Below, in pieces: positions 5,526 through 30,851 of a stretch of DNA of 64,000 nt. The DNA is from Stenotrophomonas nitritireducens (GTDB lineage Bacteria > Pseudomonadota > Gammaproteobacteria > Xanthomonadales > Xanthomonadaceae). The stretch spans positions 124,001 through 188,000 of the forward strand of contig NZ_LDJG01000001.1 of assembly GCF_001431425.1 (NCBI RefSeq). The letters are read 5' to 3'. Below the pieces are notes generated by a model that saw only the letters and a program-made list of their open reading frames with translations, did no database searches and was not told the DNA's origin. How positions within the stretch are numbered: the first letter of the stretch is position 1; each line of letters opens with the position of its first letter. The position numbers were made by a program, and so were the translations under genes.

Positions 5526-5562
5526 GCCGAAGCCATGATGAAAGATGATGGATGGGCCCATT

Positions 5563-5577
5563 ATTCCTGCATGGAAT
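5563..5577. promoter_or_regulatory. Candidate AmpR operator (T-N11-A box)
   Basis: The sequence ATTCC-TGCAT-GGAAT is a perfect inverted repeat with 5-base arms and matches the LysR consensus T-N11-A. It lies between ampR (start 38 bp away) and bla (start about 119 bp away), where AmpR sites are found in known ampR-ampC and ampR-L2 pairs. This is inferred from position and symmetry only. Confidence 0.5.
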
Positions 5578-5695
5578 GGCGGAAGTACGGTCTTTGCCGC
5601 CAATAAATCTAATGGCTTCCGATGGTTTTTCGCGCTGGTGGAAGGGGGCTGTGGTTTCCAATAATCGCCGCCGTCCCACGCCCAGGGAGAGCCGC

Positions 5696-6586
5696 ATGAT
5701 CGTCCGTCGCCAGTTCCTCGCCTTCGGTGGTGCCGCCCTTGCCGGCATCGTCGCCGCGCCCGCGATGGCCCGTGCCGCCGCCAGGGCCGAGCCCGCTTCC
5801 GCGGCTGCCGGTTTCGCCGCGCTGGAGGCCGAAAGCGGCGGCCGGCTGGGCGTGTGCCTGTGGCATCCGGCCAGCGGCGCACGCTTCGGGCACCGCATGG
5901 ATGAGCGCTTCCCCATGTGCAGCACGTTCAAGTTCCTGCTGGCGGCCGCGGTGCTGCATCGCGCCGGGCGCGGCCGGCTGTCGCTCGACCAGCGCGTGCC
6001 GGTGCGTAAGGTCGACATCCTCGGCAATTCGCCGGTCACCGCGCGCCATGCCGGCAAGGACCTGAGCGTGCGCGACCTGTGCCGGGCGACGCTGACCACC
6101 AGCGACAACGCCGCGGCCAACCTGCTGCTGCCGCTGGTCGATGGACCGGCCGGGCTGACCGCCTTCCTGCGTGCGCAGGACGACGCGGTCACCGTCGCCG
6201 CGCGCTACGAACCGGAAGCCAACCGCTTCGCGCCGGGCGACCCGCGCGACACCACCAGCCCGGCGGCGATGGCCGGCAACCTGCAGCGTTTCGTGCTCGG
6301 CGACGTGCTGGACGAGGCGTCGCGGCGGCAACTGGCCGACTGGCTGATCGACAACGAGACCGGCGCCGCGCGCCTGCGCGCGGGCCTGCCCGGGGGCTGG
6401 CGGGTGGGCGACAAGACCGGCGGCAACGGCCGCGACACCACCAACGACATCGCCTTGCTGTGGCCGGAACGAGGCGGCTCGCCCTGGGTGCTGGCCGGCT
6501 ACCTGCAGGGTTCGGCGCTGGACGACGACGGCCGCAATGCCATCCTGCGCCGGGTCGGTGAGGTGGCCGGCGACCACCTGCGCTGA
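5696..6586 (+). CDS. Class A beta-lactamase, L2-like
   Basis: This 296-residue serine beta-lactamase hydrolyses the beta-lactam ring in the periplasm. All class A landmarks are present: S76-T-F-K79, S136-D-N138, E172-P-E-A-N176 (the omega-loop Glu) and K240-T-G242. The N-terminus (IVRRQFLAFGGAALAG...AMARA) looks like a twin-arginine signal, as in the L2 enzyme of Stenotrophomonas maltophilia. The divergent ampR gene implies induction by cell-wall damage. GGGAGAG lies just before the ATG as a ribosome-binding site. Spectrum (penicillinase versus extended cephalosporinase) cannot be read from sequence with confidence. A gene symbol would depend on comparison with named alleles. Confidence 0.93.
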   Translation: MIVRRQFLAFGGAALAGIVAAPAMARAAARAEPASAAAGFAALEAESGGRLGVCLWHPASGARFGHRMDERFPMCSTFKFLLAAAVLHRAGRGRLSLDQRVPVRKVDILGNSPVTARHAGKDLSVRDLCRATLTTSDNAAANLLLPLVDGPAGLTAFLRAQDDAVTVAARYEPEANRFAPGDPRDTTSPAAMAGNLQRFVLGDVLDEASRRQLADWLIDNETGAARLRAGLPGGWRVGDKTGGNGRDTTNDIALLWPERGGSPWVLAGYLQGSALDDDGRNAILRRVGEVAGDHLR

Positions 6587-6813: not shown

Positions 6814-9558
6814 ATGGATACGGGGCAGGTGATGGACAGCGACAACTGGCAGCGCGTACGCGAACTCTTCGATGCGGTGTGCGACCTGCATCCCTCGCAT
6901 TGGCGGACCGAACTGGCGCGGCTGAGTGCTGATCCGGAGGTGGTCGCCGAAACGCTGGAACTGCTGGAGGCGCAGACCGTCGACCTGTCGCGCGTGCAGT
7001 CGCCGCTGCGCGGATTGCTGGAGGCCGGCGTGCAGACCGAACGCGCCGAAGGCGAACGGCTGGGGCCGTGGCGGCTGTGCGAACGCCTCGCCAGCGGTGG
7101 CATGGGCGTGGTGTTCCGCGCCGAGCGCGCCGACGGCCTGTACACGCAGGAAGTGGCGATCAAGGTCCTGCATGCCACGCCCGATCCGCGCATCGCCGAA
7201 CGGCTGGCCGCCGAGCGGCGCATCCTCGCCGGCCTGCAGCACCCCAACATCGCGCGCCTCTACGACGGCGGTACCACGCCCGGCGGCCAGCCCTACCTGG
7301 TGATGGAATACATCCACGGCCAGGCGCTGGATGCCCATTGCCGCCGTTGCCGCCTGGATCTGCGCCAGCGGCTGGCGCTGTTCCTGAAGGTATGCGCGGC
7401 GGTCCAGGCAGCGCACACGCGGCTGGTGCTGCATTGCGACCTCAAGCCGGCCAACATCCTGGTCCGCGCCGACGGCGAGCCGGTGCTGCTGGACTTCGGC
7501 ATCGCGCGGCTGGTCGGGAACGACGGCGATCCGGGCCGGCAGCCGTTCTTCACTCCCGGCTACGTGGCGCCCGAGCTGCGCGCGGGCGAGCCGGCGGGCA
7601 TGGCCAGCGACGTCTACAGCCTGGGCATCGTGCTGGCCGGACTGCTTTCCGCTCAGGATGCCGCGCGCGGCCCGGCCGCCGGACAGGCGCCGCTGCCGCC
7701 CAGCCATCTGGCGGATGCGGGCTGTACCTGGCGCGGCGCGTTGCGCGGCGACCTGGATGCGATCGCGATGCGGGCGGTGGCCGCGTCGGCGCAGGAGCGC
7801 TATCCCTCGGTCGAGGCGCTGGCCGCCGATGTCCGCCGCCACCTGGGACACCGGCCGGTGCTGGCGCGCGGCGGTGGCGGGTTCTACCGCGGTGGGCGGT
7901 GGCTGCGGCGCAACTGGAAGGGCATCGCCGTGCTGATCGGCATGCTGCTGCTGGCGGGCGCCTTCGTCTGGCGGCTGGCCGAGGCCCGTGCCGAGGCCGA
8001 GCGGCAGACGCAGGTTGCCGAACAGGTGAGCGCTTTCCTGGTGTCGATGTTCGAGGCGGCCGACCCGCGCGAGAAAGGCGCGCGCGCCGGCGAGGACATC
8101 ACCGCGCGCGAAGTGCTCGACCGCGCCGCGGCGCGGGTGGACGCAGAGCTGGAGGCCTCGCCCGAAGTGCAGGCGAGGCTCAAGGGCGTGATCGGCCTGG
8201 CCTACCGCAACATGGGCGACCTGGTGCGGGCCAACCCGATGATGCGCGCCTCCGCCGAAGCGCTGGCGGCCCGCGGCGGTGCGCGGAACATCGACGAGGC
8301 CGCGCGCCAGTTCAACCTGCTGGCCGGCAGCCACGCCAACAACCGCAACGGCCGCGAAGGCGAAGCGCTGGCCCGGCGCGCGCTGGCCCTGCTCGGGCAG
8401 CAGCCGGCGGACAGCTTCCGCGTCGCCCAGGCCTACAACTCGCTGGGCCTGTCGCTGCTGTCCGAGCAGCGTTACGGCGAGGCGGAACTGGCCTTCAGGC
8501 AGGCGCTGCAGCGGCACGAACTCGCGCACCGCGACCAGTTCATCGGCGTGACCTTCGACAACCTGGGCATGATGTACCGGCGCAAGGGCGAGCTGGCCGC
8601 GGCAGCGGCGGCGTTCGAGCGCTCCACGCCGATCTTCCAGCGGATGTTCGGCCAGATGTCCTTCGATTACTGGGCCAGCGACAGCGAGCGCAGCCTGGTG
8701 CTGCTCGACCAGGGGCGGTTCGACGAGGCGATTGCCGCGTTCGAGGCCAACCTGGTCCGCGCGCCGCGCATCTTCGGCGAGCGCAGCGTGTACTACATCA
8801 GCGGCACCAGCCGCCTGGCCGCTGCGTTGATCCGCAAGGGCGATTACCTGCGGGCCGACGAGCATGTGCGTGCGGCGCTGAAGCTGTCCGCCGAGGTGAT
8901 GGGCGAGGACAGCTTCAATTATTCGATGATGCTGGAAACGGCGGCGCAGCTGGCCGAAGCCCGCGACGACCGGGTGGCCGCCGAAGCGGCCTGGCGCCGG
9001 GCATTGGCGGTGCGCCGCGCCGCTATCGGCGGTGGGCATCCGGATGCGCTGGATCTGGAGCTGCAGTTGGGCCTGTTCCTGGCCCGGCAAGGCCGGGTCG
9101 AAGGCGACGCGCTGGTACGCCATGCTCATGCGGCCTGGTTGCCGCGGATTCCGGCCGGCAGCGCAAATGGGCTGCGGCTGCGCCAGGGATGGGCGGAATG
9201 GCTGCTGTTGAAAGACCGCCGGCAGGACGCCCGGGCCGCGTTGGCGGCGGTGGCCGCCGAAGCTGCGGCGGCCAGCCCGGAGGTCGCGCTCCGCCAGCAG
9301 GTGCTGCAGGCCACCCTGCTGCAGCGCGAAGGCGACGCGGCGGCGGTCGCCGCATGGCGCGATGTGGTGGCTGCCAGCACGTCCCTGTTCGGCGCGCAGT
9401 CCGCCTGGACGGCGCGTTGGCGGCTTGCCCTGGCCGATGCCCTGGTCGCCGCCGGGCAGCGCGGCGCGGGCGAATCCGCGCCGGCGCTGCAGGTGCTGCG
9501 GGCGCAACTGGTCGCGGACAGCCCGCTGCTGCATCGCGTGGAGCAGGCGCGGCAATGA
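6814..9558 (+). CDS. Ser/Thr protein kinase with transmembrane helix and TPR region (orphan paralogue)
   Basis: This 914-residue protein has a short N-terminal domain and then a kinase domain (about residues 79-345): glycine loop LASGGMGVVF, VAIK117, catalytic loop H207-C-D-L-K-P-A-N, D227-F-G and a VAPE motif. One membrane helix follows (about 370-388). The long C-terminus is rich in alpha-helical TPR-like repeats and is predicted to be periplasmic. The usual Arg before the catalytic Asp is Cys, making it a 'non-RD' kinase. Its closest relative in the window is the kinase at 28083-30851, which shares the same architecture and the N-terminal FDAVCDL segment. Unlike that one, it has no sigma factor beside it. 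ATG 6832 is an alternative start. Confidence 0.85.
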   Translation: MDTGQVMDSDNWQRVRELFDAVCDLHPSHWRTELARLSADPEVVAETLELLEAQTVDLSRVQSPLRGLLEAGVQTERAEGERLGPWRLCERLASGGMGVVFRAERADGLYTQEVAIKVLHATPDPRIAERLAAERRILAGLQHPNIARLYDGGTTPGGQPYLVMEYIHGQALDAHCRRCRLDLRQRLALFLKVCAAVQAAHTRLVLHCDLKPANILVRADGEPVLLDFGIARLVGNDGDPGRQPFFTPGYVAPELRAGEPAGMASDVYSLGIVLAGLLSAQDAARGPAAGQAPLPPSHLADAGCTWRGALRGDLDAIAMRAVAASAQERYPSVEALAADVRRHLGHRPVLARGGGGFYRGGRWLRRNWKGIAVLIGMLLLAGAFVWRLAEARAEAERQTQVAEQVSAFLVSMFEAADPREKGARAGEDITAREVLDRAAARVDAELEASPEVQARLKGVIGLAYRNMGDLVRANPMMRASAEALAARGGARNIDEAARQFNLLAGSHANNRNGREGEALARRALALLGQQPADSFRVAQAYNSLGLSLLSEQRYGEAELAFRQALQRHELAHRDQFIGVTFDNLGMMYRRKGELAAAAAAFERSTPIFQRMFGQMSFDYWASDSERSLVLLDQGRFDEAIAAFEANLVRAPRIFGERSVYYISGTSRLAAALIRKGDYLRADEHVRAALKLSAEVMGEDSFNYSMMLETAAQLAEARDDRVAAEAAWRRALAVRRAAIGGGHPDALDLELQLGLFLARQGRVEGDALVRHAHAAWLPRIPAGSANGLRLRQGWAEWLLLKDRRQDARAALAAVAAEAAAASPEVALRQQVLQATLLQREGDAAAVAAWRDVVAASTSLFGAQSAWTARWRLALADALVAAGQRGAGESAPALQVLRAQLVADSPLLHRVEQARQ

Positions 9559-27282: not shown

Positions 27283-27314
27283 GCGCACCCCGGCGCCATG
27301 CCGGGTCTTTGTTT

Positions 27315-27390
27315 GGGCCGTTAGCTCAGTCGGTAGAGCAGAAGACTTTTAATCTTTTGGTCGAAGGTTCGAATCCTTCACGGCCCACCA
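27315..27390 (+). tRNA. tRNA-Lys (anticodon UUU)
   Basis: 76 bases including an encoded CCA. The acceptor stem pairs GGGCCGT with ACGGCCC, the D-arm is AGCTCAGTCGGTAGAGC, the anticodon loop reads CTTTTAA, and the T-arm has GGTTCGAATCC. All cloverleaf elements are intact. Confidence 0.97.
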
Positions 27391-27402
27391 TGATCGAGAA
27401 GA

Positions 27403-27432
27403 GGTCCCGCATGTCCGGGGCCTTTCTTTTTT
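27403..27432 (+). terminator. Rho-independent terminator of tRNA-Lys
   Basis: Stem GGTCCC / GGGGCC (one G-U pair), 8-base loop, followed by TTTCTTTTTT. This is the clearest intrinsic terminator in the window and separates the tRNA from the sigma-factor gene. Confidence 0.8.
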
Positions 27433-27531
27433 GTGCACTGCACGCGGTTTCTGTGAACTGTTGCAGGTTGGCAGTGGACGGAGCCGGTCCTACCATGGGG
27501 ACGGTTCGGTTTCCGGCAGGATGGGGGACAC

Positions 27532-28083
27532 TTGGGTACCCAGATCACGCAACTCCTGCATCGCTGGCAGGGAGGCGACGCGCAGGCGCGGGAACAGTTG
27601 TTCGAAGCCTTGTATTCGGACCTGATGCTGGTCGCCCGCAACCGGCTGTTCAACGATACCGGCGGCACCCTGCAGCCGGCGGCGCTGGTCAACGAATCGC
27701 TGCTGCGCCTGCTGGGCTCGGAAGTGGATTACAAGGATCGCGCCCATTTCATCGCGGTGGCGGCGCTGAAGATGCGTTCGGTACTGGTCGACCACCTGCG
27801 CGCCCGCGCAGCGGACAAGCGCGGTGGAAACCTGGTGCAGTTGACCCTGTCCCACGCCAGCGACGTTCCCGACGACGATGGCAGCGCCTATGACGTGATG
27901 GCGCTGCACCAGGCCCTGAACCAGCTGGCCGAACTGGAGCCGCGGGCGGCGAGCATGGTCGAGCTGACCTATTTCGGCGGCATGAGCCGCGACGAGATCG
28001 CCATGGTGATGGGGGTGTCGGCTCCCACCGTGGACCGCGACCTGCGTTTCGCCAGGGCCTGGCTCAACCGACAGCTGGCCTGA
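27532..28083 (+). CDS. ECF-type RNA polymerase sigma factor (ECF43/TIGR02999-like)
   Basis: This 183-residue sigma factor has region 2 (about 10-80) and region 4 (about 120-180, helix-turn-helix MSRDEIAMVMGVSAPTVDRDLRFARAW). The segment RAHFIAVAALKMRSVLVDHLRA...DKRGG is the hallmark of the group usually encoded beside Ser/Thr kinases and called ECF43. Region 2.2 lacks the acidic DAED-type residues and reads LQPAALVNES (residues 47-56). The equivalent in relatives is, as I recall, LQPTALVHEA, whose Thr is phosphorylated by the partner kinase. The start is a TTG with a GGGGG ribosome-binding site 4-5 bases upstream; no in-frame ATG gives the full conserved N-terminus. Its stop overlaps the kinase start (TGATG). 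Confidence 0.88.
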   Translation: MGTQITQLLHRWQGGDAQAREQLFEALYSDLMLVARNRLFNDTGGTLQPAALVNESLLRLLGSEVDYKDRAHFIAVAALKMRSVLVDHLRARAADKRGGNLVQLTLSHASDVPDDDGSAYDVMALHQALNQLAELEPRAASMVELTYFGGMSRDEIAMVMGVSAPTVDRDLRFARAWLNRQLA

Positions 28084-30851
28084 TGGCGAACGCGGAAGAC
28101 GGGGAAGGCGCGGCGCGCTGGCGCCGGGTCCGGGGCATGTTCGATGCCGTCTGCGACCTGCCGCGCGCGCAGTGGCGGCAGGAGGTGCGAGAACGTTGCG
28201 CCGATCCCGCGCTGGCCGAGGAAGTACTGCAGTTGCTGCATGCGCAGACCCAGGGCCTGAGCCGGATCAGCAGCCGGCTGGATACGGTGCTGGCGCGCGC
28301 GCTCACGCCGGAGCTGGCGGTGGGCCAGCGGCTGGGGCCGTGGCGCCTGACCGCGCGCATCGCCCACGGCGGCATGGGCACCGTATTCAAGGCCGAACGC
28401 GACGATGGCGTCTACCGGCGCACAGTGGCGATCAAGCTGCTGCATGGCCTGCCCGGCGCGGGCGAGGTGGAGCGGCTGCAGGCCGAGCGGCAGGTGCTGG
28501 CAGGCCTGAACCTGCCCGACGTGGCCCAGCTCTACGACGGCGGCACGACGCCGGACGGGTATCCGTACCTGGTGATGGAATACGTCGACGGCCTGCCGCT
28601 GGACCACCATTGCACCAGCCACGCGCTGGGCCTGGCGCAGCGGCTGCGCCTGTTCCTGGACATCTGCGCGATCGTGCGTTCGGCGCACGAGCGCCTGGTG
28701 CTGCACTGCGACCTCAAGCCGGGCAACGTGCTGGTACGGGCCGATGGCAGGCCGGTGCTGCTGGACTTCGGCCTGGCGCGCCTGCTCAACGACGCGCGCG
28801 ACCGCGAGGAAGCGGGCTACTGCACGCCGGCCTATGCCAGCCCGGAACTGGTGAACGGCGAGCCGGTGGGCGTGGCCAGCGATGTCTACAGCCTGGGCGT
28901 GCTGCTGGTGGAGCTGCTGTCCACGCGCGCCTGCGCGCGCACGCTGCAGGACAGCGATGCGCCGGTGATCCTGCCCTCGGCCAACGCGCCGGAAGGCCTG
29001 CGCTGGCGCAAGGCGCTGCGCGGCGATCTCGACGCCATCGCCGCCAGGGCCTGCGCCCGCGACGTCGCCGGACGCTACCGGTCGGTGGAGACGCTGATGG
29101 CCGACGTGACGCGCTACCTCGACCGCCAGCCGGTGGCGGCGCGCCAGGCCGGCCGCCTGTACCGGCTGGCGCGCGGCACGCAGCGCAACTGGCGCGCGCT
29201 GGCGGCCGGAGCGGCTGCGCTCTCGCTGGCCGTGCTGTTCGTGACCGGGCTGGTGCAGGCGCGGCGCCAGGCCGAGGAAGAGGCCGCCATCGCCCACCAG
29301 GTCGGCGATTTCATGGTGGGCGTGTTCGAGACCGCCGATCCCTTCCTGCGCACCGAGCGGGGACAGGAGGAGCTCTCCTCGCGGCAACTGCTGGACAAGG
29401 CGGCGCTGCGCGTTTCCCAGGACCTGGCCGACGCCCCGGCACAGCTGGCCAGGATGCGCGCGGTGCTGGGAACCGCCTACCGCAACTCCGGGGTTTCGCG
29501 GCAGGCCGAAATGCTGCTGCAGCAGGCCTATGACGGTTTCATGGATGCGCGGGTGAACCGCCCGGCGGACGCGGCGGCAGTGCTGGCCGAGCTGTCGGTG
29601 CAGAAGACGCAGGGCGGCAACGGCGTACTGGGCCAAGAGCTGGCCGAGCGCGGATTGGCGCTGCTGCCGTCTGGCGGCGCCACGGCGACCCGGGCCAGGC
29701 TGCACGGCGCGCGCGGGCTGGCGCTGGTGAACCAGCAGCATTTCGACCAAGGCGAAGCCGCCTTCGATACCGCGATGGGCCTGTACGGGAAACTGCCGGG
29801 CAGCGGCGTCGCCCCCCAGAAACTGGCGTTGTCCTACAACAAGGGTTTGATGTACCTGCGCTGGGGGCGCCTGGCTTCGGCCGAGCGCGAGTTCCGCCAC
29901 GTGCTTGCCGGGGTGCAGGGGCGCGGCAGCAGCATGGCGCTGGCCACGGAGATGCGCCTGGCGCAGATCCTGCGCGAGCAGGGGCGGTTCGCGCAGGCGT
30001 TGCCGCTGCTGCAGGCGGGCCTGCGCCACGCCGAGGAACTGTACGGACCGGAGAGCAGCTTCGTGCTGATGCAGCACGACGGACTGGCCGACCTGTACCG
30101 CGATTCGGGCGACTACGCCGCCGCCGAACGCCAGTACCAGCAGCGCCAGCGCCTGAGCGGGATCATCGACGGCATCGGGTCGGTGGAGTACTCGATGGGG
30201 CTGTACAACTACGGCGAGCTGCAGGAACTGCGCGGCGACGTCGTCCAGGCCGAGCGGCTCTACCGGCAGGCCTGGACGATCCGCCGCGAGCGGCTGGGCG
30301 GACAGTCGCCCACCAGCCTGCGCGCCGAGTCCGGGCTGGGCGCGCTGCTGATGCGCCAGGGACACATGGACGAAGCGGGCTGGCTGCTGCTGCATGCCGA
30401 CGAGGGCCTGGACGCGGCGCTGCCGCCGGACGCGCCGGGACGCATCGAAGCGCGGCTCAACCGCATCGACTGGCACATCCTGCAGGGCGACACGGCACAG
30501 GCCCGGGCATTGCTGGAGCAGCTCGGCGCGCGGGTTCCGACGACCTTGCACCTGCACCTGCTGCGCACGCGGGCGGACCTGGCCGAACGGCGTGGCGAAG
30601 GGGCGGCGACGCTGGCGTTGCGCCGCACCGCGCTGGAGTACGCGCAGTCGCTGCATGGCGACGGCAAGGTCGAAACGGCGATCTGCCGCATCGACCTGGC
30701 CGAAACCCTGCTCCGCCTGGGCCACCGGCAACCGGCGCTGGAAGCGCTGCGGCAGGCCGCACCGACGCTCGATCGCCGGCAGGTCGAGGGCGCGCCCGCG
30801 CGGCGCAGGCTCGATGGCCTGCTGGTGCTGGCCCGCGGAAGGCCGGGCTGA
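28083..30851 (+). CDS. Ser/Thr protein kinase with transmembrane helix and TPR region (sigma-factor partner)
   Basis: This 922-residue kinase begins within the stop codon of the ECF sigma gene, so the two are translationally coupled. After a regulatory N-terminus (about 1-80) come glycine loop IAHGGMGTVF, VAIK118, catalytic loop H208-C-D210-L-K-P-G-N, D228-F-G and ASPE. One membrane helix (about 374-393) and a long helical TPR-like C-terminus, probably periplasmic, follow. As in the paralogue at 6814-9558, Cys replaces the Arg of HRD. By analogy with EcfP/PknT of Vibrio parahaemolyticus and EcfK/PknS of Xanthomonas citri, it may sense an envelope or predator signal and phosphorylate the sigma factor. 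Confidence 0.88.
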   Translation: MANAEDGEGAARWRRVRGMFDAVCDLPRAQWRQEVRERCADPALAEEVLQLLHAQTQGLSRISSRLDTVLARALTPELAVGQRLGPWRLTARIAHGGMGTVFKAERDDGVYRRTVAIKLLHGLPGAGEVERLQAERQVLAGLNLPDVAQLYDGGTTPDGYPYLVMEYVDGLPLDHHCTSHALGLAQRLRLFLDICAIVRSAHERLVLHCDLKPGNVLVRADGRPVLLDFGLARLLNDARDREEAGYCTPAYASPELVNGEPVGVASDVYSLGVLLVELLSTRACARTLQDSDAPVILPSANAPEGLRWRKALRGDLDAIAARACARDVAGRYRSVETLMADVTRYLDRQPVAARQAGRLYRLARGTQRNWRALAAGAAALSLAVLFVTGLVQARRQAEEEAAIAHQVGDFMVGVFETADPFLRTERGQEELSSRQLLDKAALRVSQDLADAPAQLARMRAVLGTAYRNSGVSRQAEMLLQQAYDGFMDARVNRPADAAAVLAELSVQKTQGGNGVLGQELAERGLALLPSGGATATRARLHGARGLALVNQQHFDQGEAAFDTAMGLYGKLPGSGVAPQKLALSYNKGLMYLRWGRLASAEREFRHVLAGVQGRGSSMALATEMRLAQILREQGRFAQALPLLQAGLRHAEELYGPESSFVLMQHDGLADLYRDSGDYAAAERQYQQRQRLSGIIDGIGSVEYSMGLYNYGELQELRGDVVQAERLYRQAWTIRRERLGGQSPTSLRAESGLGALLMRQGHMDEAGWLLLHADEGLDAALPPDAPGRIEARLNRIDWHILQGDTAQARALLEQLGARVPTTLHLHLLRTRADLAERRGEGAATLALRRTALEYAQSLHGDGKVETAICRIDLAETLLRLGHRQPALEALRQAAPTLDRRQVEGAPARRRLDGLLVLARGRPG

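Follow-up and report, generated by a model that had tools for sequence, protein, structure and literature searches.

A Thr-less lineage derived from ECF43 in Stenotrophomonas: a sigma factor without its region 2.2 acceptor, its receptor-type kinase, and a candidate switch in the linker

A gene for an ECF43-like extracytoplasmic function (ECF) sigma factor and a gene for a Ser/Thr kinase overlap in a stretch of 64,000 nucleotides from Stenotrophomonas nitritireducens (assembly GCF_001431425.1, contig NZ_LDJG01000001.1, positions 124,001 to 188,000). This whole stretch is called the window, and all coordinates are counted from its first base (Table 1). The TGA stop codon of the sigma gene (28081-28083) and the ATG start codon of the kinase gene (28083-28085) share the single base 28083. 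The sigma protein scored 187.1 bits against TIGR02999 (cut-off 126.15), which served as a stand-in for the ECF43 group model in the test of sequence membership, and it matched Sigma70_ECF with an E value of 5.2e-46. The genome is close to S. acidaminiphila, and the sigma protein is 98% identical to one from S. acidaminiphila JCM 13310, met in a scan of genome contigs that yielded only 6 loci. Residues 47-56 read L-Q-P-A-A-L-V-N-E-S (LQPAALVNES). A first-pass annotation had described the two genes as an ECF43-like sigma/kinase pair with a TGATG overlap and with Ala50 where the kinase would be expected to find its target Thr. Coordinates, reading frame, overlap and residues were confirmed, and the TIGR02999 score of the sigma factor and the Pkinase and tetratricopeptide repeat (TPR) domains of the kinase agree with the family assignment.

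The kinase contains the motifs VAIK, HCDLKPGN and DFG. Its layout is that of a PknS-type receptor kinase, with an N-terminal catalytic domain (Lys, HxD, Asn and DFG), a predicted single transmembrane segment and a TPR-rich C-terminal region; the transmembrane segment was judged from a hydrophobicity window alone, in which residues 372-391 were the most hydrophobic 20-residue stretch. The best solved relative was 9eed (E 5.6e-47), a 364-residue chain that would fit residues 1-364 of PknS from Xanthomonas citri. The Arg of the HRD motif is a Cys here, as in every related kinase found among the sampled loci.

Table 1. Positions, within the window, of the sigma/kinase locus, its codons of interest and a second kinase gene
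Feature	Coordinates	Strand	Basis or remark
Candidate sigma-70 type promoter, TTGGCA-17-TACCAT, preceding the sigma gene	27468..27496	+	One hit in 27300-27700, versus 0.1 expected in shuffles
ECF43-like sigma factor without phospho-acceptor Thr	27532..28083	+	TTG start; TIGR02999 and Sigma70_ECF matches
Thr46 codon ACC, possible alternative acceptor	27667..27669	+	T in 22/22 of clade, S/T in 102/134 others
Ala50 codon GCG, position of EcfK T51	27679..27681	+	Alignment to EcfK-type L138; Thr in 0/22 of clade
Ser56 codon TCG, clade-specific serine in region 2.2 helix	27697..27699	+	S in 21/22 of clade, S/T in 15/134 others; predicted helix 49-61
Thr105 codon, EcfK T106 position, sigma2-sigma4 linker, proposed switch residue	27844..27846	+	T in 22/22; aligned to EcfK T106
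Ser107 codon, EcfK S108 position	27850..27852	+	S in 21/22 of clade; alignment
Membrane Ser/Thr kinase, putative cognate partner, with catalytic domain, single hydrophobic segment and TPR region at the C-terminus	28083..30851	+	Pkinase 91-284, TPR_12
Second TPR kinase, possible trans partner	6814..9558	+	41% identical to first kinase; no sigma gene adjacent

Three of the features that characterize ECF43 were found at the locus. A Hanks-type Ser/Thr kinase gene adjoins the sigma gene (one-base overlap, Pkinase E 2.9e-30), the acids of the DAED or DxxD motif of region 2.2 are replaced by the uncharged QPAA, and the linker position that corresponds to T106 of Xanthomonas EcfK, where Ser, Thr, Asp or Glu is expected, is occupied by Thr105. 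A fourth, the conserved phospho-acceptor Thr of region 2.2, is lacking. The acceptor and the acids of the DxxD part are gone from region 2.2, and Glu55 of the xxQE part is kept. According to the main text of PMC13147305, the acceptor Thr is conserved in 88% of ECF43 members, and Ser, Thr, Asp or Glu stands at the T106 position in 76.9%. Given Ala50 in place of the acceptor, and a clade of 22 (described below) in which Thr never occupies this site, we propose that the window sigma factor is best named a Thr-less variant or lineage derived from ECF43 and not a standard member.

The residues of the window protein were numbered against EcfK by way of three loci of one other genus group (L138, L140 and L141), which carry QATE and the linker T-x-T-x-S-x-S and were taken as presumable EcfK orthologs. 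When the Thr of QATE in L138 was numbered 51, the correct letter was found at all nine other EcfK positions checked (Y29, R33, Q49, E52, H55, T104, T106, S108 and S110). In the alignment to L138, T51 and E52 correspond to Ala50 and Ala51, so that both the replacement of the acceptor Thr and the absence of the acidic motif are borne out; T106 and S108 correspond to Thr105 and Ser107, and T104 and S110 to Gln103 and Ala109. The phosphosites reported in the main text on EcfK are T51, T104, T106, S108 and S110 (PMC13147305). In X. citri, plasmid-borne EcfK T51A complements, whereas T51A/T106A fails to do so efficiently, and T106 is the only one of the four linker sites described there as mattering in combination with T51A (PMC13147305). 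Among Thr105, Thr46, Ser56 and Ser107 of the window protein, only Thr105 and Ser107 match sites phosphorylated in EcfK (PMC13147305). The RpoC protein of the window genome has R275, N294, E295, R297, E301, R322 and K325, to which the docking of the two EcfK phosphates has been assigned. A structure model places Ala50 and Ser56 in a helix (49-61) and Thr105 in a linker (98-119) that was modelled with low confidence, the predicted local distance difference test (pLDDT) being below 50; the model was built from 7 sequences, with a mean pLDDT of 79.5 for the best model and 46-52 for the other four.

To place the substitution among relatives, 209 loci with a sigma match were collected, and after removal of 53 duplicates or proteins shorter than 150 residues, 156 distinct sigma rows remained. 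The acceptor position is Thr in 129 of them, Ala in 20, Val in 3, Ser in 2 and Gly in 2; 129/156 is a biased rate of Thr, because most rows entered the sample through their resemblance to the window protein or their best TIGR02999 scores. The earlier statement that relatives have Thr at this site agrees with this count; they often read LQPTALV(H/N)EA. In a tree computed without columns 50, 56 and 105, the window sigma factor falls into a clade of 22 rows with a support of 98 in the Shimodaira-Hasegawa-like approximate likelihood ratio test (SH-aLRT); this tree and the kinase tree below were quick trees with SH-aLRT support only. No member of the clade has Thr at the acceptor site (18 Ala, 2 Val, 1 Gly, 1 Ser), and only 5 of the 134 rows outside it lack Thr there. 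The nearest outsiders (at least 54% identity) have Thr50, Thr105 and Ala56 in 51 of 51 cases. Clade members also come from three other genus groups (G169, G047 and G034). Within the genus, 34 sigma places were detected in 29 of 91 genomes at an E value of 1e-40, of which 19, in 18 genomes, are without Thr (16 Ala, 2 Val, 1 Ser) and 15 have Thr. The substitution goes beyond chance and is no peculiarity of the window protein, which the first-pass annotation had not foreseen: Ala is the rule in the clade, and Ala50 reflects a trait of the lineage and not a single odd protein.

Several individual proteins deserve description. An acid has been gained in the motif in 3 of the 22 clade members (QPGD, APAD and EPSA), and the other 19 are without one. 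Two distant members (L065/L215 of G047 and L186/L214 of G034) have an Asp at the last motif position, APAD and QPGD, respectively, and have kept the kinase; the sequences look as if they had reverted to a permanent charge. A second sigma copy without an adjacent kinase (L112, G448 contig 111) reads LEPSALVNES, with Ser at the acceptor position and an acid at the first motif position. A paralog from the same genome as the window sigma factor (L003; G000 contig 67, 135386-135877), with a kinase match just downstream, reads LDTVALLHET, without an acceptor Thr and with Asp at the first motif position. It is one of the five Thr-less outsiders, and its loss of Thr was apparently independent of the window clade; its branch is long.

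The kinase has been inherited together with the Thr-less sigma factor. In 19 of 22 cases the sigma gene adjoins a kinase gene, and these 19 kinases form one clade with a support of 100 in a tree from which the rows of L092-L095 were omitted as repeats of other loci. The catalytic Lys and Glu, HCD, Asn and DFG are intact in all 19, and inactivation of the kinase was therefore ruled out as an explanation of the Thr loss. Glu203 is one of the residues that set the 19 kinases apart from 29 other kinases compared. Residue 144 is another: it is Leu in 19/19 kinases of the Thr-less clade versus the His of an HPNI motif in 29/29 others. Besides the window pair, the five nearest relatives also show the one-base overlap of the sigma and kinase genes; in the 11 other rows measured, a gap of 13-28 bases separates the two. 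No kinase gene lies beside the sigma gene in the two Val-type genomes (G338 and G406) or beside the Ser-type second copy in G448. In G406 the sigma gene has the same neighbours as in the window, with queC/tRNA-Lys on one side and recQ on the other. In G338 it is followed by recQ and dps, and the shared locus is evident on the recQ side alone: a partial tRNA-Lys match of 48 bases was present without a called tRNA gene, and the 10.5 kb upstream contained no queC match.

A second TPR kinase is encoded elsewhere in the window, and no TIGR02999 match lies beside it (6814-9558). Orthologs in the genus were detected in 12 of the 18 genomes with a Thr-less sigma factor versus 0 of the 73 others, a count that depends on the cut-offs used, with at most nine candidates scored per genome. 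None of the 18 genomes lacks both the operon kinase and the second kinase, and in G338 and G406 only the second is present. The 12 sequences form one clade, to which the kinase of a Thr-type pair (L136) is nearest, and their catalytic motifs are intact. The co-occurrence with the Thr-less sigma factor may be plain shared descent, and a functional partnership is a guess. A further possibility, that the region 2.2 switch is permanently gone and one phosphothreonine in the linker integrates the signals of two receptor kinases, the second standing in where the operon kinase has been lost, is speculative and in our view rather doubtful. Relatives of the second kinase were also sought in viral contigs, and none were found there. 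In the window, between 4650 and 9558, the gene lies next to one for a class A beta-lactamase (5552-6586; 579.5 bits against the CESS family model, cut-off 525) and to a LysR-type gene on the opposite strand. Beta-lactamase matches were present near the second kinase in 9 of the 11 orthologous loci read; the loci of G338 and G406 are without.

Upstream of the sigma gene, the scan detected one candidate promoter of the sigma-70 type (Table 1). Among the upstream regions of Ala-type orthologs, 12 of 17 contain a site that matches at least 8 of the 12 consensus bases; neither of the two Val-type regions does, and the relatives were counted without a shuffled control. The five other Ala-type regions, two of which belong to the closest relatives of the window (L098 and L099), score at most 7. 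Autoregulation via an ECF-type promoter was considered and rejected, because the upstream block resembles a sigma-70 promoter instead. Such a promoter would suit a sigma factor that is produced ahead of need and then waits to be activated.

Taken together, the best explanation of the locus, to which we give about an even chance, is a sigma factor of ECF43 descent that lost its region 2.2 switch in the ancestor of the lineage and is switched through linker Thr105. The phospho-switch of region 2.2 would have disappeared in the common ancestor of a lineage that today comprises members from Stenotrophomonas and from three further genus groups of its family. The promoter would supply the sigma/kinase operon, the membrane TPR kinase would sense a signal from the envelope or from outside and phosphorylate Thr105, and the phosphate would dock in the positive pocket of the RNA polymerase beta' subunit formed by Arg322/Lys325. 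The lineage would thus run on the second of the two switches that are known from Xanthomonas EcfK. The loss and its fixation throughout the sampled clade, the kept Thr105, a co-inherited kinase with intact motifs and the conserved residues of the pocket are observed here; the phosphorylation of Thr105 and its activating effect, the working of the promoter and the signal are inferred.

Several observations weigh against this explanation. Thr105 is just as invariant in the 51 near relatives that retain the other Thr, and therefore its retention is no proof of a new role; an independent-pairs test revealed no association of Thr loss with Thr105. Three clade members, two of the Val type and one Ser-type copy, are without an adjacent kinase. 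In addition, EcfK T106E gave no constitutive activity, and the harmlessness of T51A in EcfK is explained partly by neighbouring residues (both from the main text of PMC13147305); of these, Y28 and Q48 are retained in the window protein, but the positions of R33, E52 and H55 are occupied by Met, Ala and Asn. A structure model places Ala50 and Ser56 in a helix (49-61) and Thr105 in a linker (98-119) that was modelled with low confidence, the predicted local distance difference test (pLDDT) being below 50; the model was built from 7 sequences, with a mean pLDDT of 79.5 for the best model and 46-52 for the other four.

A different acceptor might have taken over, either Ser56 or Thr46 in region 2.2, as had been suggested in the first-pass annotation, or the clade-specific Ser141 or Thr146 in region 4. 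Ser or Thr is indeed enriched in the clade versus the 134 other rows at positions 56 and 46 (Table 1), 141 (20/22 versus 4/134) and 146 (22/22 versus 21/134), and Ser56 co-occurs with the Thr loss in 21/22 clade members and 0/51 near relatives. However, membership in a single clade explains these gains. The co-variation of Ala50 and Ser56 that had been put forward for checking reflects one shared ancestry within the clade; the tree offered only 4 usable independent pairs, which gave no signal, and Ser56 was accordingly rejected as a compensating acceptor. Moreover, Ser56 is inside the predicted helix, Thr46 is common outside the clade, and none of the four residues matches an EcfK phosphosite in the main text of PMC13147305. 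We regard such a takeover as unlikely. Ser56 and Thr46 are weaker candidates than Thr105, which the first-pass annotation had not named and for which EcfK T106 is an experimental precedent (PMC13147305). Replacement of the charge by additional acids in the linker was also rejected, as the mean number of Asp plus Glu (5.2 in the clade versus 4.7 in near relatives) differs too little. The independent-pairs test showed a weak, non-significant lean when acids at positions 48 or 51 were considered, with 1.8 of 4 pairs on average pointing the same way as the Thr loss and none the opposite way. Among the 156 rows, a single one has neither Ser nor Thr at the acceptor position and neither at the linker position, and that row has an Asp at position 51.

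It is also conceivable, although we think it somewhat improbable, that the sigma factor needs no phosphorylation at all and binds RNA polymerase unmodified, weakly or constitutively, while the kinase acts on a different target or is on its way to being lost. Residue 50 varies among Ala, Val, Gly and Ser in the clade, as if it were free, two members have an Asp at position 51 and one a Glu at 48, and in G338 and G406 a Val at the site coincides with the lack of a kinase beside the sigma gene, at a locus that in G406 has the same neighbouring genes as in the window. Yet 19 of the 22 members retain an adjacent kinase with intact catalytic motifs, both kinase-less Val genomes keep the second kinase, and, if post-translational control were absent, expression from a housekeeping-type promoter would keep the sigma factor permanently on. 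That the lineage is drifting to loss of function, the Thr being gone since the pair matters little, is very unlikely. Its presence is patchy, with only 29 of 91 genomes of the genus having the sigma factor at the threshold used and 18 the Thr-less kind; however, the frames are open at all 34 places. The ratio of non-synonymous to synonymous substitution rates could be computed for 11 of 12 pairs of clade members and lay at 0.03-0.26: ten kinase-linked ortholog pairs gave 0.03-0.20 and the two Val-type copies gave 0.26, and the remaining pair, which involved the Ser-type copy, was saturated at silent sites.

Whether the linker Thr of an ECF43 protein can be the switch alone was left open for Xanthomonas, where two sites back each other up (main text of PMC13147305). 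The Thr-less clade is a natural T51-less series. Because the first site is gone in 22 proteins, while the linker Thr is present in all 22 and the kinase in 19, the question can therefore be tested without engineering. A prediction of kinase control that looked only at the region 2.2 Thr would overlook a whole lineage of sigma factors. Neither Lysobacter nor Stenotrophomonas is mentioned in the main text of PMC13147305, and the Thr-less lineage is new in the sense that it was not found in the literature searched.

Compared with known systems, the window pair resembles Thr-type TIGR02999 pairs of the same family (L120, L122, L134 and L136) in gene order, in a kinase that is homologous over most of its length, in HCDLKPxN and in the linker (V/L)TLS. 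Unlike the window protein, these sigma factors have Thr50 and Ala56, and their kinases are outside the clade of the window kinase. EcfP/PknT of Vibrio parahaemolyticus, likewise ECF43, is also a sigma/kinase pair without DAED, but EcfP, as described in PMC8999054 and PMC13147305, carries STTA in region 2.2 with one phospho-Thr, at a position where the window sigma factor has no Thr. EcfK/PknS of X. citri is similar in that an ECF43-type sigma factor is encoded beside a membrane Ser/Thr kinase with a TPR-rich domain, which is periplasmic in PknS (PMC13147305), and the kinase domain of the window protein is related to 9eed, presumably PknS 1-364 itself, although 9eed has HRD where the window kinase has HCD. 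The window sigma factor differs from EcfK by Ala50/Ala51 at T51/E52 and by the lack of equivalents of T104 and S110. In contrast, T106 and S108 of the EcfK linker are kept as Thr105 and Ser107, and the docking residues of RpoC are identical.

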